Below are positions 10,952 through 49,860 of a DNA stretch of 64,000 nt, one piece after another. The position numbers and the translations under genes are program-made. Numbering within the stretch: position 1 is the first letter of the stretch; every line of letters begins with the position of its first letter. The stretch comes from Motilibacter rhizosphaerae (GTDB lineage: Bacteria; Actinomycetota; Actinomycetes; Motilibacterales; Motilibacteraceae). The stretch covers positions 186,001-250,000 of the forward strand of contig NZ_SGXD01000001.1 of the NCBI RefSeq assembly GCF_004216915.1, read 5' to 3'. The notes below the pieces were generated by a model. The model had not been told where the DNA came from. It worked only from the letters and a program-made list of their open reading frames with translations, and searched no databases.

Positions 10952-12673
10952 TCAGGGGCGGCGTACGGTCCGGCTGCTGTCCGGCGCACGCTTGGTCCAG
11001 CCGCGGCCGTCCAGGTGCTCGAGCAGCGGGACGACGACGCGCCGGCTGCTGCCCAGGGCCGTCCGCGCCTGGCTGACCGTGAACGGCTGCGGGAGTCCCG
11101 CCAGGACGCGCATCGCCCGGGCCGGGCCGTCCGGCAGCAGCAGTACCTCGCCCGGCAGCCGCAGCAGACGACCCGCCGTCGCGGCTGCCGCGAGCTCGCG
11201 GGGACCGAGGCCCGCTGACCGCAGCTCGTCGAGGTCGGGGGCGTCGAAGGCGCTGTTGCGCAGGCGGTCCTCGATCCGGCGTACGGCCTCCTCCGCCGCC
11301 CCCAGCGACGGACGCCACCCCGCTGTCCGCACGCGCCCCGACCCGCGCTCCAGCCCGGTGGCCGCCGCGAGCGGCGCCACGACCTCGGGGTCCGGTAGTC
11401 CCAGTGCCGCAGCAGCGGCCCCCTCCGGCAGACCGGGCGACAACGGCTCGGCCCGCTGGTGCTCGAGGCAGGCCGCCCGCAGCGCCTCCTGCCACTGCGC
11501 CCACCGCGACCGCGCGACCAGCCAGCCGCCCGCCTCCACGCCGTCGGCCGCCAACGAGCCCGCGGGCACGAAACCCCTGCGCTCGAGCACGTCCTGCGGC
11601 TGCTCGGGCCCCTGGCGCAGCGCCTCCGCCCTGCGTCGCGCGTCCCCGCGTCGGCGGAGCCGCTCCGGCGCAGTGTCGAGCACCGACAGCCCGACGATGC
11701 GCCCGTCGCCGGGGTCGCGCAGCAGGAGCCGCTCTCCCACGGCGAGGGGCAGCGGGTGCGCGAGCGACAGGCGGGCGACGTCGCCGTCCAGCGGGCGTAC
11801 GCGCGTGGGCACCGCTGCCGTCCCCGCGTGCAGGGTGAGCTCCGCGGGCAGCCGGTCCCCCGGGTCGAGCCGGACATCGACGAGCGCGCTCGGGCGCCAG
11901 GAACCCGGCGACAGCAGCGCGTCCCCGCGCCCGACCTCGTCGAGCTCGACGCCGCGCAGGTTGACCGCCACCCGTGCGGTCGCGGTGACGTGCTCGTGCG
12001 GCTCGCCGAGGCTCTGCAGCCCGCGGACGCGCACGTCCCGTCCGCGGAGCGAGAGCACGTCGTCCACGCGCAGGGTTCCTGCTGCGAGGGTGCCGGTCAC
12101 CACGGTCCCGGCACCGCGTACGGTGAACGCCCGGTCCACCCACAACCGCACAGCAGCAGCAGGATCAGGTGCAGGCAGCCGCGCGACGAGCGCGTCCAGG
12201 GCGGAGCGCAGCTCGTCCAGGCCCGCACCCGTGGCGCCGCTGACCTGCACGGCCGGCACCTGCCCGAGCGACGAGGACGCGATGCGCCGCAGGGCTTCCT
12301 CCGTCGCAGGACCCGGGTCCGCCAGGTCCGATCTGGTGACCGCGAGCAGGCCGTGCCGCAGCCGCAGCGCCTCCACCGCCGCCAGGTGCTCGGTGGACTG
12401 CTGGCGCCAGCCCTCGTCCGCGGCGACGACGACGAGCACCGCGGGCGCCGGGCCGATGCCGGCGAGCATGTTGCCGAGGAACCGCGCATGCCCTGGTACG
12501 TCGACGAAGCTGATCGTCTCCCCGCTCGGCAGCCGCGTCCACGCGTAGCCGAGGTCGATCGTCATGCCGCGCCGCCGCTCCTCCGCCCAGCGGTCCGGCT
12601 CCATGCCCGTCAGCGCGCGGACGAGCGTGGACTTCCCGTGGTCGACGTGACCCGCGGTCGCGACGACGTGCAT
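10952..12673 (-). CDS. selB: Selenocysteine-specific elongation factor SelB
   Basis: A 573-residue GTPase that binds selenocysteyl-tRNA and the SECIS hairpin, delivering selenocysteine at UGA. G-domain motifs are AGHVDHGKST (residues 7-16), the switch region MTIDLGYAW, DVPGH and TRSD. EF-Tu-like domains II and III follow (FTVRGAGTVVTGTL), then C-terminal winged helices that bind SECIS RNA (about residues 390-573). The ATG at 12673 overlaps the selA stop (TGATG), so selA and selB are coupled. Partners in the window are tRNA-Sec (13987-14079), selD (26203) and the UGA-containing formate dehydrogenase (18398). Confidence 0.95.
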   Translation of the reverse strand: MHVVATAGHVDHGKSTLVRALTGMEPDRWAEERRRGMTIDLGYAWTRLPSGETISFVDVPGHARFLGNMLAGIGPAPAVLVVVAADEGWRQQSTEHLAAVEALRLRHGLLAVTRSDLADPGPATEEALRRIASSSLGQVPAVQVSGATGAGLDELRSALDALVARLPAPDPAAAVRLWVDRAFTVRGAGTVVTGTLAAGTLRVDDVLSLRGRDVRVRGLQSLGEPHEHVTATARVAVNLRGVELDEVGRGDALLSPGSWRPSALVDVRLDPGDRLPAELTLHAGTAAVPTRVRPLDGDVARLSLAHPLPLAVGERLLLRDPGDGRIVGLSVLDTAPERLRRRGDARRRAEALRQGPEQPQDVLERRGFVPAGSLAADGVEAGGWLVARSRWAQWQEALRAACLEHQRAEPLSPGLPEGAAAAALGLPDPEVVAPLAAATGLERGSGRVRTAGWRPSLGAAEEAVRRIEDRLRNSAFDAPDLDELRSAGLGPRELAAAATAGRLLRLPGEVLLLPDGPARAMRVLAGLPQPFTVSQARTALGSSRRVVVPLLEHLDGRGWTKRAPDSSRTVRRP

Positions 12674-13950
12674 CAGCTGAGCGCCGCGAGGACCGCTTGC
12701 AGGACCGCGGGATCGTGTGTCTCCGGCACGCACCGCAGGTCGACCAGGCAACGGTCGCGCTCGACGCGCGCCACCACGGGCGGGGAGCCGTGGCGCAGCC
12801 GCTCCGCGACAGCGGGGGGCAGCGCGACCGCCCAGCCCGGCAGCTCGACACCGGGGCCGCCGCCACCACCGACGGCGCCAGCACTCGGCACGACGGTGGC
12901 GCCCGGCACGGCCGCAGCCAACCGCTCCGAGCGCTCACGCAGCACCTCCGCAGGCAGCCGGAGTGCCTGCCACACCGGCACGTCTGCTGCCCGCAGCGTC
13001 GCCTCGAGCGCGGCGAGCGTCAGCTTGTCGACGCGCAGCGCGCGGGCGAGCGGGTGCCGCCGCAGCCGCTCGACCACGTCGGCCGGCCCGAGCAGCAGAC
13101 CCGCCTGCGGTCCACCCAGCAGCTTGTCCGCACTCGCCGTGACGACAGAAGCGCCTGCCAGCAGCGCAGTCCGCACGTCCGGCTCATCAGGGAGCAGCGG
13201 ATCCGGGGCGAGCAGGCCGCTGCCGACGTCGGCGACCACCGGCACGCCGAGCCCGGCGAGCTCGGCCACCTCGACGCTGCTGGTGAAGCCCTCCACCCGG
13301 AAGTTGCTGGGGTGCACCTTGAGGATGCAGCCCGTCTCCGGCCCGACCGCGTGCGCGTAGTCGCCCAGGTGCGTGCGGTTCGTCGTCCCGACCTCGCGCA
13401 GGCGCGCGCCGGTCGAGGCGATGAGGTCGGGCAGGCGGAACCCGTCGCCGATCTCCACCATCTCGCCCCTACTGACGACGACCTCGCGGCCGGCCGCGAG
13501 CGCGGTCGTCGCGAGGACCAGCGCGGCGGCACCGTTGTTCAGCACCAGAGCGGCTCCCGCAGCGGGGACTCTGTCGAGCAGCGCCTGCAGCGTCCCGCGC
13601 CCGCGCCGGGCCCGGGTGCCGGTCGCCAGGTCGAACTCCACGTCGGTGGAGCCCGCTGCCGTCGCCAGCGCCTCGACCGCCGCAGCAGACAGGGGCGCGC
13701 GGCCGAGGTTCGTGTGCAGCACGACACCCGTCGCGTTGATCACCTGCTGCAGCGAGGTCCCGGACACCGGCAGGGCGTCCGCGGTCGCCGCCGCGCAGGC
13801 CTCGGGCGCGAGCTCGCCACGGCGTACGCGCTCCTGCTGGCGGACGACCTCCGCCTTCACCGCCTCCCGCCCCAGCCGCTCGAGCGCCGGCGCGAGCAGC
13901 GGGTCGGCGAGCAGCGCGTCGGTCCTGGGTACGCGGCGGCGCGGGTCCAC
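12673..13950 (-). CDS. selA: L-seryl-tRNA(Sec) selenium transferase SelA
   Basis: A 425-residue PLP enzyme that converts seryl-tRNA(Sec) to selenocysteyl-tRNA(Sec) using selenophosphate. Visible features are the N-terminal domain (VPRTDALLADPLL), VINATGVVLHTNLGRAPLS, HPSNFRVEGF and the PLP lysine K276 in ASADKLLGGPQAG. The stop overlaps the selB ATG. Two in-frame GTGs are possible (13956 and 13950). A TAGGTT hexamer at 13958-13963 is 7 nt from the second and only 1 nt from the first, so the second is chosen as a leaderless start. Confidence 0.95.
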   Translation of the reverse strand: MDPRRRVPRTDALLADPLLAPALERLGREAVKAEVVRQQERVRRGELAPEACAAATADALPVSGTSLQQVINATGVVLHTNLGRAPLSAAAVEALATAAGSTDVEFDLATGTRARRGRGTLQALLDRVPAAGAALVLNNGAAALVLATTALAAGREVVVSRGEMVEIGDGFRLPDLIASTGARLREVGTTNRTHLGDYAHAVGPETGCILKVHPSNFRVEGFTSSVEVAELAGLGVPVVADVGSGLLAPDPLLPDEPDVRTALLAGASVVTASADKLLGGPQAGLLLGPADVVERLRRHPLARALRVDKLTLAALEATLRAADVPVWQALRLPAEVLRERSERLAAAVPGATVVPSAGAVGGGGGPGVELPGWAVALPPAVAERLRHGSPPVVARVERDRCLVDLRCVPETHDPAVLQAVLAALS

Positions 13951-13957
13951 GAGCACG

Positions 13958-13963: not shown

Positions 13964-13986
13964 CCCGCGCCGCCCGCGACCGGCAG

Positions 13987-14079
13987 CGGAGGCGGACGGG
14001 AATCGAACCCGCCAGGACGAGGTGCTCGCCCTCACCGGTGTTGAAGACCGGGGCGCCCACCAGGAACGCGTACGCCTCC
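13987..14079 (-). tRNA. selC: tRNA-Sec (anticodon UCA)
   Basis: On the minus strand a 93-nt RNA begins GGAGGCGTACGCG and ends at CGCCTCC plus a G discriminator; CCA is not encoded. The acceptor arms GGAGGCG/CGCCTCC pair perfectly. The six-bp D stem GCGTTC/GGGCGC is typical of tRNA-Sec. The anticodon stem CCGGT/ACCGG encloses the loop CTTCAAC with anticodon TCA (14042-14044), there is a long variable arm, and the T arm is GCGGG-TTCGATT-CCCGT. It reads UGA as selenocysteine together with SelA and SelB, encoded just downstream on the same strand. It lies 10 bp after the stop of the oxidoreductase gene. Confidence 0.93.
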
Positions 14080-14089
14080 GCCGAGCACT

Positions 14090-15175
14090 CTAGCCAGCCC
14101 ACGCCTCGCGAGCCGTGGTCACCGGCCGCCCGCTCGACGCGGCCTCCTCGACCGCGAGCGCGACCAGGTGGTCCTGGCACGCCTCCGCGAGGGGGTACGG
14201 CGCGGGCCCGTCACCGCGTACCCACCGGCCGGTGGCGGCGAGGATGTCGGCCACCGCGACGTCGTCGTCGGACATCCGCGAGCCCGCGAACGGGTTCCGG
14301 TAGACGACCTCGCCGTCGAAGCTGATGAAGTCGAGGTCGACGCCCTCGAGGTCGAGGTCCACGCCGCGCTGGCGGCGCACGAGGTGCGACTGCACGGGCG
14401 AGCGGGGGTCGACGAGCCGCACCACGCTGTCGTCGACGATCTCACCGAGCGACCCGCGGACGACGATCCGGCGTGCACGCAGCGGGTTCCACCACTGGTT
14501 GTCGGTGAAGTCGTAGACCGCGGTGCGCCCGTCGCCGAAGTCGAGCAGTCCGATCGTCGTGCCGGCCTGCTGCGGCTCGAGCGACCCGGTCCAGCCGTCC
14601 TTCCCGAGCGGGTCGGCGAGCGGAGCGGTCGTGCGCTGACCGACGACGGTGACGGGGTCGAAGCCGGTGCCGAGGAACCCGCGGATGAGCGAGGTCGCGT
14701 GGTACATGTGCGTGCTCGAGACCTGGACGCCAGTGACCGTGCCGACCACCCCGCGCCGGGCGACGGCGAGGCGCGCGGCGTGGCCGGGCATGAGGAGGTA
14801 CTGCTCGGCGACCTGGACGCGTCCGCTCGCGCCGACGCGCGACCAGAGCGCGCGCAGCCCGTCGGCGTCAGCGGCCGGGGGCGTCTCGGCCAGCACGGCG
14901 TACCCCAGCTCCACGGCGCGCTCGGTCACCGCGGGCGTCTCCCCCCACGGCACGGAGGGCACGACGTACTCCGGGGCGGTGGCGGCGACCTCGTCCAGCG
15001 TGCGGAAGGTCGGGACGCCCCACTCGGCGGTGACCTGCTCGCCCCGCTCGGCCGTGCGCGTCACGACGGCACTGACCTGCAGCTGCTCGGGCGCCATGCG
15101 CGCCAGGCGCAGGAAGAACTGCGAGCGCCAGCCGCTGCCGACGACAGCGAACCGGACCGGCTCCTGGGTAGCCAC
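14090..15175 (-). CDS. Gfo/Idh/MocA family NAD(P)-dependent oxidoreductase
   Basis: A 361-residue protein with an N-terminal Rossmann fold (FAVVGSGWRSQFFLRLA) and the catalytic-region motif AETPPAADADGL, where many relatives have EKP; the key lysine is absent. The C-terminal alpha/beta domain spans about residues 130-350. Family members oxidise or reduce sugars and cyclitols. GTG at 15175 has a GAGGAGG site a few bases upstream. The gene immediately precedes tRNA-Sec on the same strand, but no link in function is evident. Loss of the EKP lysine makes the reaction uncertain. Confidence 0.75.
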   Translation of the reverse strand: MATQEPVRFAVVGSGWRSQFFLRLARMAPEQLQVSAVVTRTAERGEQVTAEWGVPTFRTLDEVAATAPEYVVPSVPWGETPAVTERAVELGYAVLAETPPAADADGLRALWSRVGASGRVQVAEQYLLMPGHAARLAVARRGVVGTVTGVQVSSTHMYHATSLIRGFLGTGFDPVTVVGQRTTAPLADPLGKDGWTGSLEPQQAGTTIGLLDFGDGRTAVYDFTDNQWWNPLRARRIVVRGSLGEIVDDSVVRLVDPRSPVQSHLVRRQRGVDLDLEGVDLDFISFDGEVVYRNPFAGSRMSDDDVAVADILAATGRWVRGDGPAPYPLAEACQDHLVALAVEEAASSGRPVTTAREAWAG

Positions 15176-15233: not shown

Positions 15234-18200
15234 TCAGGTACGCGCCGCCGCCCGCAGGCCCGGTGCCCACGACGAGGTGTCGATGCCGGTGACGAGGAGC
15301 TCGGCGAGCTCGGCGGCCGGCGCGGGCCGCGCGAACAGGTAGCCCTGGCCCATCGGGCAGCCGAGCGCGCGCAGCCGCAGCGGCTGCTCCGGCGTCTCGA
15401 TGCCCTCGGCGATGACCTCCATGCCGAGGCTGCGGCCCATCGCCGTGATCGCGCGGATGATCTCACGGCCGCGGGCGAGGTGCAGCCGGCCCACGAACGA
15501 GCGGTCGATCTTCAGCGCGTCGATGGGGAAGCTGTGCAGCGCCTCGAGGGAGGAGTAGCCCGTCCCGAAGTCGTCGATGTGGAGGTTGACCCCGCGGCCG
15601 TGGAGCTCGCCGAGCAGCGAGGCGGCCTCGGCGGCGTTGTCCATGACGACGCCCTCGGTGATCTCGAGGGAGAGCCGCGAGGCGACCGCGCCCGGCAGGG
15701 CCAGCTCGGCGTCGAGCACGTCGAGCAGGTCCCGGTGCCAGAACTCCCGGTGCGACAGGTTGACCGAGAGCGAGAGGTCGGAGTCGGCGACGCCTGCGGC
15801 ACGCCAGGCCAGCAGCTGGCGCCAGCTCTCGCGCAGCACGAGCTGGCCGAGCGGCACGATGAGCCCGGTCTCCTCGGCGACCGGCAGGAAGTCCGCCGGG
15901 CTGACGAGCCGCCCCGCGGAGTTCCGCCAGCGGACCAGCGCCTCCAGCGCCGCGATCCGCCCCGTGGAGAGGCGCACGATCGGCTGGTAGTGGACCTCGA
16001 TGCCCGACCCGTCGCCGGAGCCCTCGATCGCGCGCCGCAGCTCGCCCTCGAGGCGCAGCCGGTCGACGGCGCGGTCGTGCATGGCGACCTGGAAGACCGC
16101 GGTGGAGCCGCGCTCGCGGGCCTTCGCGGCGTACATCGCGATGTCGGCGTCGCGGACGATCTGCTCCGCCCCGGTGTAGGCGGGCGCGCCGTGCGCGATG
16201 CCGATCGCGGCCGTGGCGACCACCGGGTGCCCCTGGACGTCGTACGGCCGGGCGAGCTCGGCCTGCAGGCGCTCGACCACGGCCTCGACGACCTCGGGCT
16301 CGGCGTCGCGCAGCAGCACCGCGAACTCGTCGCCGCCGAAGCGCGCCGCGACGTCCCCGGCGCGGATGCAGGACAGCAGCCGCGAGGCCACCTGCGTCAG
16401 CAGGTCGTCGCCGGCGAGGTGGCCGAGCCCGTCGTTGACGAGCTTGAAGCCGTCGAGGTCGAGGAAGAGCATCGCGAACGGCTCGTCGCCGGCCCGCCCC
16501 ACGGCCTCCTGCAGCTGCTCGTTGAAGTACGCCCGGTTGGGCAGCCCGGTCAGCTCGTCGAACAGCGCGCGACGGCGCAGCTGCTCCTCGAGGCGGACGC
16601 GCTCGGCCTGCGACTCGCGCTGCTCGAGCGCGACGGCGAGCAGCGCCGACCACTGGAAGTACGTCTCGCGCCCCGTCGCCGTCGCGAGCTCGGGCTTGCC
16701 GACGAGCGCGAGCAGCCCCCAGTCGCGCGTCGCGGTCCGCACCGGCAGCACGAAGGCGAGCTCGCCGGCCTCCGGGTCGACGAGGTCGAGCAGCGTGCGC
16801 GGCGGGAACTCCTCCACGCGCTGGAGCCCGCGCGCCTCGGTGCCGAGGCTGCCGAACGACTGGACGAGGTGGAGCGTGTGCCCGACCTCGGCCGGCGCGC
16901 TCCACAGCCCGACGCAGCCGGCCCGGCACCGCGTACGCGCCAGCCAGCGCAGGGACGAGGGGTCGTCGTGGGGAGCGCGGAGCAGCTCCATGCTGATGTC
17001 GTACTCGCTGCGCAGCTCGTCGCGCAGGTGGCGGGTGGCCTCGTGCGCGTCGCTGGTGCGGGCGTCGGCGAGGCACATGGCGAGCTCGCGCACGAGCTCG
17101 TCGGCGATGTCGCGCGGGCAGCCGCGGTCGCGCAGCTCGGCCTGGATCTCGCGCAGCAGCCCGGTCATCGTCTCGCGGCGGGGGCGCAGCGCGAAGACGT
17201 GCCGGACCGCCTGCTCGACCTGGGCGGGCTCGAGCGGGGCGGCGCCCTCGCTGGCGACGGCGAGCGCCGTCGTGAGCGCGGTGCCCGCGGAGCCGAGCTC
17301 GGCGTGCGCGGGGCTGCCCGGGGCGACCTCGGGGAACAGCGCCGCCAGCCGGTCGGCGAAGGCCAGCCCGACGCTGCCGCCGCGACCCACGAGCGCGAGG
17401 CCGTCGCAGCCGCACGACGCCCGGGGGACGTAGGACGTGGGCACCCGGTGGGTCACCGGCTCCAGCGGGCCCTCGAGCCCGGCGAGGGCCAGCCGCGCGG
17501 CGAGCTCGCCGAGCCGCTCGAACGGCTGCCCCACGGAGGCCAGCGCGGGGCTCTGCGCGCCGGCCCGGGCGGTGTCGTCGAAGCCGACGACCGCCATCTC
17601 CAGGGGCAGGCGGAGGCCCGCCTCCTGCAGCGCACGGCTCAGCCCGATCGCCGTGTTGTCGTTGGCGCAGACGACGGCGGTGGCCGGGAGCCCGTCGGCG
17701 AGCAGCGCGCGCCCGGCGGCCTCGCCGCCCCAGTCCATGAGGTTGTCGACCTCGTAGCGCAGGCGCGGGTCGGGCTCGATGCCGTGCTCGCGGAGGACCT
17801 GCTCGTACGCGGCGTGCCGCTCGCGCGTGTCCTGGTTCTCGAGGCTCCCGACCCACGCGATCCGGCGGTGGCCGTGGCGGAGCAGGTGCTCGACGACCTC
17901 CCGGCCGCCGGTCGTGTTGTCGGCGAGCACGCTGGGGAAGCCCGCCACCTCGCGGGAGACCATGACGACGGGCTTGCCGGTGGCGCGCACCGCCGCCAGG
18001 TGCTCGTCGTCCAGGGCGAAGGTCAGCGACACGACCGCGTCGTAGCGGTCGGACGAGAGCCCGCCCGGCACGTCGGGGAAGTCCTTGAACTCGTCCCCCA
18101 CCGCGGGGTGCAGCGTCTGCACCGCCAGCAGCCGGGCGCCGCGCGCAGCGCACTCGCGCTGGAGGCCGCGCAGGATCACGCCGAAGAAGGGCCCGGCGAC

Positions 18201-18239
18201 GAGCGGCGTGAAGAACGCGACGGTGGGTCTGCGGCCCAT
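15234..18239 (-). CDS. LacI-type ligand-binding domain fused to GGDEF and EAL domains
   Basis: A 1001-residue protein with no signal peptide or membrane segment. Residues 1-265 form a LacI/periplasmic-binding-protein fold without an HTH (RPTVAFFTPLVAGPFFG; HGHRRIAWVG; VVCANDNTAIGLSRAL; VVGFDDTA), followed by a SCGC motif near residue 275. A helical/GAF-like region runs to about 530. A GGDEF domain follows (FDELTGLPNR; GGDEF at about 635), then an EAL domain (EAL at about 766; DDFGTGYSS; EGIET). It probably senses a small intracellular ligand and makes or breaks down cyclic di-GMP. Both catalytic signatures look intact. ATG at 18239 has GAGGAGGG upstream. A paralogue of the same architecture is at 46348. 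Confidence 0.88.
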   Translation of the reverse strand: MGRRPTVAFFTPLVAGPFFGVILRGLQRECAARGARLLAVQTLHPAVGDEFKDFPDVPGGLSSDRYDAVVSLTFALDDEHLAAVRATGKPVVMVSREVAGFPSVLADNTTGGREVVEHLLRHGHRRIAWVGSLENQDTRERHAAYEQVLREHGIEPDPRLRYEVDNLMDWGGEAAGRALLADGLPATAVVCANDNTAIGLSRALQEAGLRLPLEMAVVGFDDTARAGAQSPALASVGQPFERLGELAARLALAGLEGPLEPVTHRVPTSYVPRASCGCDGLALVGRGGSVGLAFADRLAALFPEVAPGSPAHAELGSAGTALTTALAVASEGAAPLEPAQVEQAVRHVFALRPRRETMTGLLREIQAELRDRGCPRDIADELVRELAMCLADARTSDAHEATRHLRDELRSEYDISMELLRAPHDDPSSLRWLARTRCRAGCVGLWSAPAEVGHTLHLVQSFGSLGTEARGLQRVEEFPPRTLLDLVDPEAGELAFVLPVRTATRDWGLLALVGKPELATATGRETYFQWSALLAVALEQRESQAERVRLEEQLRRRALFDELTGLPNRAYFNEQLQEAVGRAGDEPFAMLFLDLDGFKLVNDGLGHLAGDDLLTQVASRLLSCIRAGDVAARFGGDEFAVLLRDAEPEVVEAVVERLQAELARPYDVQGHPVVATAAIGIAHGAPAYTGAEQIVRDADIAMYAAKARERGSTAVFQVAMHDRAVDRLRLEGELRRAIEGSGDGSGIEVHYQPIVRLSTGRIAALEALVRWRNSAGRLVSPADFLPVAEETGLIVPLGQLVLRESWRQLLAWRAAGVADSDLSLSVNLSHREFWHRDLLDVLDAELALPGAVASRLSLEITEGVVMDNAAEAASLLGELHGRGVNLHIDDFGTGYSSLEALHSFPIDALKIDRSFVGRLHLARGREIIRAITAMGRSLGMEVIAEGIETPEQPLRLRALGCPMGQGYLFARPAPAAELAELLVTGIDTSSWAPGLRAAART

Positions 18240-18397
18240 GCCCCGGTCCCTCCTCACCCGCTCGTGCGGCGGCGCCGTGCCGCCCGCTCCCTCTCCATCG
18301 GCAGGGCGGGCCCGAGCCTGACACGTACGGCGCGCCCGGGTGGGCCGTTCGCGCGTCCCGGTGTTTGACCTGCGCAGGAGAGTGGCAGAGTGGGCCC

Positions 18398-21300
18398 GTG
18401 GGCGTGCGCACCTTCCTCGAGGGCTGGCCGGTCTACCGGCAGCTGACCGGTGACGACCCCCTGGGCCGCGGTGCCGCCGCGAAGTCCGCCGGCTCGAAGG
18501 CGCTCGTCGCCCGGACCGAGACCGCGGACCGCGTCGTGAAGTCCATCTGCCCCTACTGCGCGGTCGGCTGCGGGCAGCGCGTCTACGTCAAGGACGAGCG
18601 GGTCGTCCAGATCGAGGGCGACCCGGACAGCCCGATCTCCCGCGGGCGGCTCTGCCCCAAGGGCTCCGCCTCGCTGGGCCTGGTCAACGGCCCGCTGCGC
18701 GAGACCAGGGTGAAGTACCGGAGGCCGTACTCCACCCAGTGGGAGGAGCTCGACCTCGACACGGCGATGGACATGATCACCGACCGGGTGATCGAGGCCC
18801 GCCGCAAGGGGTGGCAAGACAAGGACGAGCAGGGCCGCCGGCTGCGCCGCACGATGGGCATCGCGAGCCTCGGCGGCGCCACGCTGGACAACGAGGAGAA
18901 CTACCTCATCAAGAAGCTCTTCACCGCGATGGGTGCCATCCAGGTGGAGAACCAGGCGCGCATTTGACACAGCGCCACGGTGCCCGGTCTGGGTGCCTCG
19001 TTCGGACGCGGAGGCGCGACCACCTCGCTGCAGGACCTGGCGAACGCCGACTGCATCGTCATCCAGGGCTCGAACATGGCCGAGTGCCACCCGGTCGGGT
19101 TCCAGTGGGTGATGGAGGCGAAGGCGCGCGGCGCCAAGGTCGTGCACATCGACCCCCGCTTCACCCGGACGAGCGCGCAGGCGGACACCTACGTCCCCAT
19201 CCGCTCGGGCAGTGACATCGTCCTGCTCGGCGCGGTGATCAAGCAGGTCCTCGAGCGGGACCTCTGGTTTGAGGACTACGTCCGCGCGTACACCAACGCG
19301 GCGTGGATCGTGTCCGAGGACTTCGAGGACACCGAGGACCTCGACGGGCTGTTCTCCGGCTTTGACCAGGAGAAGCGCGCCTACGACACGACCTCGTGGC
19401 AGTACGCCGGCCAGGAGGAGGCCTCAGGGGACGAGTCGCACGAGGGCGACCGCGCGAGCAGCTCCGAGAAGGGCCAGCGGACGGGCGCGGCCGGGGCGAG
19501 CATCGAGACCCACGAGGTCGAGAAGGACGAGACGCTGCAGCACCCGCACTGCGTCTTCCAGATCCTCAAGCGCCACTTCGCGCGCTACACCCCGGAGATG
19601 GTCGAGGAGATGTGCGGCATCAGCCGCGACCTCTTCGACGAGATCGTGGACGCGTTCACGCAGAACAGCGGGCGGGAGCGCACCACGGCGCTGGTCTACA
19701 GCGTCGGCTGGACCCAGCGCGGCACCGGCGTGCAGTACATCCGCACCGGCGCGATCCTCCAGCTGCTGCTGGGCAACATGGGGCGCCCGGGCGGCGGCAT
19801 CATGGCACTGCGCGGCCACGCGAGCATCCAGGGGTCGACCGACATCCCCACGCTCTACAACCTGCTGCCGGGCTACCTCGAGATGCCGCACGTCGACGAG
19901 CACGACACGCTGCAGGACTACATCGAGAAGATCAAGGGCTCCAACCAGAAGGGCTTCTGGGGCAAGGCCGACACCTACGTCGTCAGCCTGCTGAAGGCCT
20001 ACTTCGGCGACAACGCGACCGCGGACAACGACTACTGCTTCGACTACCTGCCCCGGATCAACGGCGACCACGGCACCTACAGCCAGGTCATGGACATGAT
20101 CGAGGGCGGGAAGATCTTCGGCTACTTCCTGCTCGGGCAGAACCCCGCGGTCGGCTCGGCCAACGGCCGGGCCCAGCGGCTCGGGCTGGCCAACCTCGAC
20201 TGGCTGGTCGTCCGCGACCTCGTGATGATCGAGAGCGCGACCTTCTGGCAGAACGCCCCGGAGATCGAGACGGGCGAGATCGTGGCGGAGGAGTGCCGCA
20301 CGGAGGTCTTCTTCATGCCGGCGGCGACGCACGTGGAGAAGAAGGGCACCTTCACCCAGACCCAGCGGCTGCTGCAGTGGCGCGAGCAGGCGACCGAGCC
20401 GCCGGGCGACTGCACGAGCGACCTGTGGTTCATCTACCACCTGGGCCGGAAGATGCGCGAGAAGCTCGCCGCGTCCACCGACGAGCGCGACCGCCCGCTG
20501 CTGGAGGTCGCGTGGGACTACCCGCTCGAGGGCGAGAAGGGCGACCCCGACGGCGAGGCCGTGCTCAAGGAGATCAACGGCTACGACCTCACGACGGGCA
20601 AGACCCTGTCCGCCTTCACCGAGCTGAAGGCCGACGGCTCCACGTCCGCGGGCTGCTGGATCTACACCGGTGTCTACGCCGACGGGGTCAACCAGGCCGC
20701 GCGCCGCAAGCCGGCGAAGGAGCAGAACTGGCTCGGCCTGGAGTGGGGCTGGGCGTGGCCGGCCAACCGCCGCGTGCTCTACAACCGCGCCTCCGCCGAC
20801 CCCGACGGCAAGCCGTGGAGCGAGCGCAAGGCGCTGGTGTGGTGGGACGAGGACGCCCAGGAGTGGACAGGGCACGACGTGCCCGACTTCCAGAAGACCA
20901 AGTCGCCGCACTTCCGGCCGGAGCCCGGGGCCAGCGGTCCCGACGCCCTCGCCGGCGACGACGCCTTCATCATGCAGGCGGACGGCAAGGCCTGGCTGTA
21001 CGCGCCGAAGGGCGCCGTCGACGGGCCGCTCCCCACGCACTACGAGCCGGGCGAGTCGCCCGTGCGCAACGGGCTCTACACCCAGCAGCAGAACCCCACG
21101 CGCGAGGTCTACACGGCGCCGTTCAACGAGATGCACCCGTCCCCGCCCGAGCCCGGGTCCTCGCTGTTCCCGTACGTCTGGACCACGTCCCGGCTCACCG
21201 AGCACCACACCGCCGGCGGCATGAGCCGCTACCTGCCCTACCTCGCGGAGCTCCAGCCGGAGCTCTTCATGGAGGTCTCGCCGGAGCTGGCGGCGGAGCG

Positions 21301-21730
21301 GGGGCTCCGGCACCTGGAGTTCGCGCACGTCATCACCGCCCGCGCGGTGGTCGAGGCGCGGGTGCTGGTGACCGACAGGCTGACGCCGCTGCGCGTGCAG
21401 GGGCAGGTCATCCACCAGGTCTGGCTCCCCTACCACTGGGGGCCGGGCGGCCTCACGACCGGTGACGTCGTCAACGACCTGCCGCACCTCACGCTCGACC
21501 CCAACGTGCACATCCAGGAGTGCAAGGCGGGGACGTGCGACGTGCGCCCCGGCCGCCGCCCGCGCGGACCCGCGGTGCTGGACCTCATGGCGAGCTACCG
21601 CAGCGAGGCCGGCGTGACCGAGGAGACCGGGACCGTCGCGATGACGACGACGCTGATCGCGCACCGCGGTGACGCGCACGAGGCGCAGGCGGCCGTCGAC
21701 GCCGCAGCAGCCCACGGCCAGGAGGGCTGA
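18398..21730 (+). CDS. Formate dehydrogenase catalytic subunit, selenoprotein (UGA = Sec190)
   Basis: A 1110-residue molybdopterin enzyme read through an in-frame TGA at 18965-18967. It oxidises formate to CO2. The N-terminal [4Fe-4S] cysteines are C51, C54, C58 and C86. The family motif continues across the TGA (VENQARI-U-HSATVPGLGASFGRGG), with Sec at residue 190 where relatives have Sec or Cys. The bis-MGD domains follow, with the C-terminal dinucleotide-binding domain after about residue 900. No Tat signal, so it is cytoplasmic. A hydrophilic insert is present near residues 335-370. GTG at 18398 chosen: a CAGAGT hexamer lies 6 nt upstream. Beta and membrane subunits follow directly. Confidence 0.95.
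18968..18997 (+). promoter_or_regulatory. Bacterial SECIS element directing selenocysteine insertion
   Basis: After the UGA, 18 nt lead to the loop GGUCU (18986-18990), closed by a 7-bp stem GGTGCCC (18979-18985) and GGGTGCC (18991-18997) with two G-U pairs. As I recall it, the E. coli fdhF SECIS has the same GGUCU loop sequence at the same 18-nt distance. SelB should bind here and deliver Sec-tRNA. Confidence 0.88.

Positions 21731-46347: not shown

Positions 46348-49860
<3,513 letters not shown>

Follow-up and report, generated by a model that had tools for sequence, protein, structure and literature searches.

The locus raises two questions: what might be sensed by a LacI-type effector domain that is joined to GGDEF and EAL domains in a protein lacking a helix-turn-helix (HTH) domain, and what part is played by the SCGC motif found at its exit. 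The gene of this protein (protein A) was identified by ORF and Pfam reading of the window, which is the whole 64,000-nucleotide stretch of Motilibacter rhizosphaerae DNA analysed here. It occupies positions 15234-18239 of the minus strand and encodes 1001 amino acids from an ATG. The ORF is open over 15234-18257 (−), 1007 codons when counted from the first GTG, and the 110 in-frame codons upstream hold no start codon. A Shine-Dalgarno-like AGGAGG lies just past this GTG and ahead of the ATG (Table 1). The ATG is therefore the better start, which confirms the coordinates of the original prediction. Residue numbers refer below to the 1007-residue frame; numbering from the ATG is obtained by subtracting 6.

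Architecture and cellular location of protein A

Protein A is composed of a LacI-type periplasmic-binding domain, the SCGC motif, a helical and GAF-like linker, GGDEF and EAL. Pfam matches were found to Peripla_BP_3 (residues 122-282, E 3e-31), Peripla_BP_1, GGDEF (7e-44) and EAL (3e-65). Among PDB sequences the sensor matches the LacI family. An AlphaFold model of residues 1-558, run as a monomer with 45 relatives, has a mean pLDDT of 91 and a pTM of 0.91. Structure prediction of the sensor had been proposed as a check, and it returned a LacI/CcpA/PurR-type core: residues 10-284 match the cores of LacI, CcpA, PurR and RbsR with Z of 24-26 over 250-279 aligned residues. Model confidence drops at the Cys-x-Cys (CxC) of the SCGC motif and beyond (mean 74 for residues 281-290, below 50 at 290-296). 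With respect to the LacI/GalR family, protein A has the effector domain and lacks the N-terminal LacI-type HTH. An HTH profile built from LacI regulators of the same genome matched 29 of 29 control LacI proteins and none of the 46 family proteins described below, 27 of which have fewer than 60 open codons ahead of the sensor match. Pfam domains, fold model and HTH profile thus agree with the proposal of a LacI effector domain without HTH on GGDEF-EAL.

No signal peptide was detected by hydropathy and in the model, nor any membrane helix between the sensor and the enzymes, as had been predicted. The most hydrophobic 19-mer (residues 11-29) reaches a Kyte-Doolittle value of 1.71, which is borderline with respect to the usual membrane-segment rule of 1.6. 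In the model this segment makes up strand 1 of the LacI fold (E12-17) and the beginning of helix 1 (H25-38). A membrane or exported sensor was ruled out, the sole borderline stretch being part of that fold. By hydropathy and by the model, protein A is cytosolic.

The fusion of sensor and enzymes stated in the original prediction is real but not direct, as the two are separated by a helical bundle and a GAF-like domain of about 280 residues in total. The linker is modelled as a helical bundle (residues 300-427, including a long helix at 382-427), followed by a GAF-like domain (437-520) and a closing helix (532-557). No Pfam match was found between sensor and GGDEF of protein A, and none of the 46 members matches any Pfam model at 0.01 in the GAF-like core. 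This core has the GAF fold and no match to the Pfam GAF model: modelled alone it reaches a pLDDT of 92, and its Foldseek/VIA matches are mainly GAF domains. The best fold match is the Mycobacterium smegmatis DevS GAF-B domain (2vjw, 2vks; Z 12.0, rmsd 2.7, 113 residues, 20% identity); no common function is implied by this match.

The GGDEF motif of protein A is preceded by an RxxD, and its EAL domain has all of the EAL, N, E, DDFGTGYS, K, E and QG motifs, which we take to be the catalytic ones. An inactive GGDEF and EAL pair with no ligand effect would have spoken against the original prediction; judged by their motifs, both domains appear intact. In the family, an exact GGDEF is found in 39 of 42 proteins (38 of these 39 with RxxD) and EAL or EVL in 21 of 21.

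Table 1. Coordinates of features of protein A and related elements in the window.
Feature	Position	Strand	Basis or remark
Gfo/Idh/MocA-type oxidoreductase	14090-15175	−	next gene downstream of protein A, same strand
EAL domain	15324-16040	−	residues 740-978; Pfam and motifs
GGDEF domain	16110-16568	−	residues 564-716; GGDEF at 641, inhibitory-site RxxD (RAGD) before it
GAF-like domain and outgoing signalling helix	16587-16949	−	residues 437-557; fold only, no Pfam model
Loop (low confidence 290-296) and helical bundle	16950-17405	−	AlphaFold model
SCGC, residues 281-284	17406-17417	−	exit of effector domain
LacI-type periplasmic-binding (effector) domain	17418-18230	−	residues 10-280; Pfam, PDB-sequence matches, model
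Shine-Dalgarno-like AGGAGG	18249-18254	−	sequence; precedes ATG at 18239
Paralogue B	46348-49860	+	LacI-type sensor, SCGC, linker, GAF, GGDEF (no RxxD site), EAL
SCGC of paralogue B	47254-47265	+	sequence

Relatives, outputs and genome context

The same sensor and linker were found in 46 proteins scattered over Actinomycetota, Dormibacterota and one Chloroflexi assembly. A collection scan yielded 18 loci, from Actinotalea, Actinoplanes, Catenuloplanes, Dactylosporangium, Plantactinospora, Micromonospora, Kineosporia, Isoptericola and other Actinomycetota, from Dormibacterota and from the Chloroflexi assembly. A profile of the GAF-like core, which does not contain the CxC, was run over the 17 genomes holding these loci and gave 45 matches in the 17 genomes, 10 of them in one assembly. 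The latter, an assembly of Actinomycetales (G449; loci L042, L046, L131, L137, L139, L142, L145, L151 and L152), has one CAC in place of CGC. A wide spread in Actinomycetota was not found: of 296 genomes sampled in one search and 396 in another, the linker matched one each, both times the source genome itself; these large searches scored no more than the top 8 or 9 candidates of a genome and may have missed some.

The sensor is present in 46 of the 48 collected proteins. The domain orders that follow sensor and GAF-like core, read with profiles built from these same proteins, are PAS-GGDEF (12), GGDEF-EAL (10), PAS-GGDEF-EAL (10), GGDEF (8), histidine kinase (4), GGDEF-EAL with a split core match (1) and PAS only (1). 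A recognised GGDEF, EAL or kinase thus ends 45 of the 46 sensor-bearing proteins. The presence of one sensor-linker on GGDEF, GGDEF-EAL or histidine kinase is as expected of a sensor module. The two proteins without sensor have the orders core-PAS-GGDEF and core-kinase; in the second (L141:2365-3699, −) the GAF-like core and histidine kinase have no LacI-type sensor in frame.

The source genome has 39 Peripla_BP_3 matches. Five of these proteins are fused to GGDEF, namely A, B (46348), C (L033), D (L034) and E (L031). SCGC is found in A, B, C and D, and SSGA in E. The linker is common to A, C and D, while B, in which Pfam recognises Peripla_BP_3, GAF, GGDEF and EAL, and E are unmatched by the linker-core profile. 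In a tree of 111 sensors, built without the tail columns, the sensor of protein A groups with 44 others (clade of 45, support 1.0). B, E and a Deinococcus protein (L094) form a separate clade (support 0.98), whose grouping with the HTH-bearing LacI proteins L072 and L086 is unsupported (0.19-0.43). The tree includes L050, which has CGC although an insertion ends its profile match early. It is rooted at its midpoint, and the order of HTH loss is thus one that we infer. The original prediction named the protein at 46348 as paralogue of A. It is indeed a LacI-sensor GGDEF-EAL protein with SCGC, but it belongs to a different branch and was rejected as nearest paralogue, C and D being nearer. One or both cysteines are lost in the kin of B (SCGT in L094, SSGA in E, RGST in L155). 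The linker of B matched 2 of the 198 genomes searched, the second through L155, whose RGST tail has no cysteine.

The gene neighbourhood did not reveal a common pathway. The Gfo/Idh, SelA and formate dehydrogenase neighbours of protein A have no match in 44 loci around family members, and 20 neighbours hand-picked in 9 family loci have mixed functions. An arginine-deiminase-like gene is found directly behind the family member in both Actinotalea loci (L040:4082-4855 and L041:7706-8617), and a cellulase gene and an HTH LacI gene are near L045. In the window, the formate dehydrogenase-like (molybdopterin oxidoreductase) gene at 18365-21730 (+) has an in-frame TGA (18965-18967) that likely codes selenocysteine. 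A tRNA-Sec (13986-14079, −) and SelA (12673-13956, −) are encoded near it, with the genes of protein A and the Gfo/Idh oxidoreductase in between.

The cysteine pair at the sensor exit

Residue 284 of the model, the second cysteine of SCGC, aligns with LacI residue 331, which we take to be the start of the C-terminal extension of LacI itself. Both cysteines are invariant in the 46 sensor-bearing proteins (CGC 45, CAC 1), in which 11 to 161 residues separate the motif from the GAF-like core. The 45 relatives are 29-41% identical to protein A, and only 9 columns are invariant across about 560 residues, the two cysteines among them. The collection-scan pattern contained SCGC, and the presence of CxC in all of its 18 loci is therefore not free evidence. 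A set collected without cysteine pattern comprises 30 proteins, 28 of them with sensor (L138 runs off its contig and L141 has none in frame), and CxC is present in 28 of 28 (27 CGC, 1 CAC). This set includes A, C, D and L037, the last obtained with a query that held SCGC; without these four the count is 24 of 24.

The motif is also found in ordinary LacI proteins. CGC is present in 3 of 95 readable tails (1/28, 1/28 and 1/39) and SCG or TCG in 3 more, as counted by eye, with tails taken as readable when the profile match extends at least to position 281. The samples are 28 readable of 33 distinct non-fused proteins of the same genome (the second frame of L022 was dropped as a copy of L026), 28 of 29 from the class, and 39 of 40 in a further sample taken irrespective of HTH; the class sample and the further sample come from the top-scoring matches and are not random. 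SCGC ends the plain LacI-type repressors L012 (same genome), L072 and L176. The L012 protein terminates directly after SCGC and L176 one residue later. The motif therefore belongs to the end of the sensor and became fixed in the fusions without having arisen in them: as read from sequence comparison, SCGC is a variant of the LacI C-terminal tail. The original prediction was right that SCGC is shared by A and the protein at 46348 and lies at the exit of the sensor domain, but the motif is part of the domain's own tail and is special neither to this pair nor to cyclic di-GMP fusions.

The cysteines would most likely fix or bridge the sensor exit, by packing or as a thiolate site shared in a dimer, and not contact the ligand. 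Alternatively, the pair itself could be the input: the CxC of two subunits would share a Cys4 site for zinc or iron-sulfur, or act as a disulfide switch, and redox state or metal would be read together with, or instead of, a sugar. The invariance of both cysteines, with the glycine between them changed to alanine once, and the conservation of the motif at every spacer length are consistent with such an input. So is the absence of a third cysteine common to the 24 sensor regions listed, since four could only be brought together by a dimer. We consider it unlikely, nevertheless, as CGC ends the ordinary repressors L012 and L176 without any further domain, and as paralogue E, which is also a LacI-sensor GGDEF protein, has the cysteine-less SSGA (L031:1612-3570, −), a natural variant. 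It is quite unlikely that SCGC has no function of its own and is the frozen tail of a founding LacI repressor. The CGC or [ST]CG tails of 6 of the 95 ordinary proteins and the grouping of the fusions as one clade would fit this origin, but at this divergence both cysteines are among so few invariant columns.

Ligand pocket, proposed mechanism and known systems

Pocket columns were assigned by alignment of protein A with a Lac repressor. D143, R147 and D227 align with LacI S193, R197 and D274, respectively, which we take to be pocket residues under this numbering. D143 and R147 are found in 45 of 45 family sensors (one row is short at its N-terminus) and D227 in 46 of 46. D200 is also invariant (46/46) and Q244 is present in 36 of 46. 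LacI-type ligand residues are thus kept, and the invariance of those matching R197 and D274 makes ligand sensing by the LacI-type domain likely. The position of LacI N246 is occupied by threonine in 33 of the 46 sensors, and the pocket is therefore not plainly that of LacI. One ligand type for the whole family is plausible from this conservation. Binding of a protein partner in place of a small molecule is very unlikely: CcpA, which binds HPr-Ser-P, is among the best fold matches, but invariant polar pocket residues would be unneeded for a partner. That sensing was lost, leaving a mere dimer scaffold for a constitutive enzyme, is the least probable reading, given a pocket invariant in 45-46 such divergent sequences and a sensor module swapped among unlike outputs.

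We consider it fairly probable that protein A acts on cyclic di-GMP turnover as a cytosolic one-component sensor, in which a LacI-type domain moved by its ligand would act through a relay on the GGDEF-EAL balance. A small polar, most likely sugar-like, metabolite would bind between the two lobes of the domain and shift its exit strand, which ends in the invariant CxC where the C-terminal extension of LacI begins. The movement would travel through helical bundle, GAF-like domain and signalling helix into the paired GGDEF-EAL, and the balance of cyclic di-GMP synthesis and breakdown would be altered. The dimeric nature of this relay and the direction of control are inferred parts of this reading, as are ligand binding and the role of the cysteines.

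The family is a defined case: the mechanics of its fold are known, its pocket is invariant, its cysteine pair is fixed and its outputs are swapped. Study of it could reveal directly how cyclic di-GMP levels are set by a metabolite of the cytosol, and whether the tail motif of LacI serves as a metal or redox joint; the answer would bear on the plain LacI repressors that have it as well. A broader proposal, rather unlikely as a whole, would be a sensor family of three phyla with one metabolite, exchangeable outputs and a common Cys4 metal, iron-sulfur or disulfide joint coupling it to redox or metal, a joint that a few plain LacI repressors would share.

A search of the open-access literature returned nothing on a family with sensor, CxC and GAF-like linker; within that literature, LacI-type sensors that combine an invariant CxC with interchangeable outputs appear not to have been described as a family. 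The kind of protein is already known: in the parts consulted, PMC8846402 notes LacI-like periplasmic-binding domains on cyclic di-GMP proteins, which may bind solutes such as sugars, and places those on GGDEF/EAL proteins among the domains without validated roles. The proteins of that account have the same kind of domain as protein A, but these parts name no family with CxC and GAF-like linker, which appears to be what is new. The LacI/GalR repressors (LacI, CcpA, PurR, RbsR, AscG) resemble protein A in effector fold and sequence, in the R197/D274-type pocket and, for some, in the SCGC tail, whereas protein A differs from them by the absence of HTH, the GGDEF-EAL output and the long helical and GAF-like linker. 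The Deinococcus peraridilitoris protein WP_015231178.1 (L094) similarly combines a LacI-type sensor with GGDEF-EAL and has no HTH, but its SCGT tail has a single cysteine and it lies outside the clade of A. In RmcA of P. aeruginosa, as given in the parts of PMC8846402 consulted, a sensor of periplasmic-binding fold (SBP_bac_3, arginine) also controls cyclic di-GMP breakdown; unlike protein A, it has a binding domain of another family, whose clan is called periplasmic in that source.
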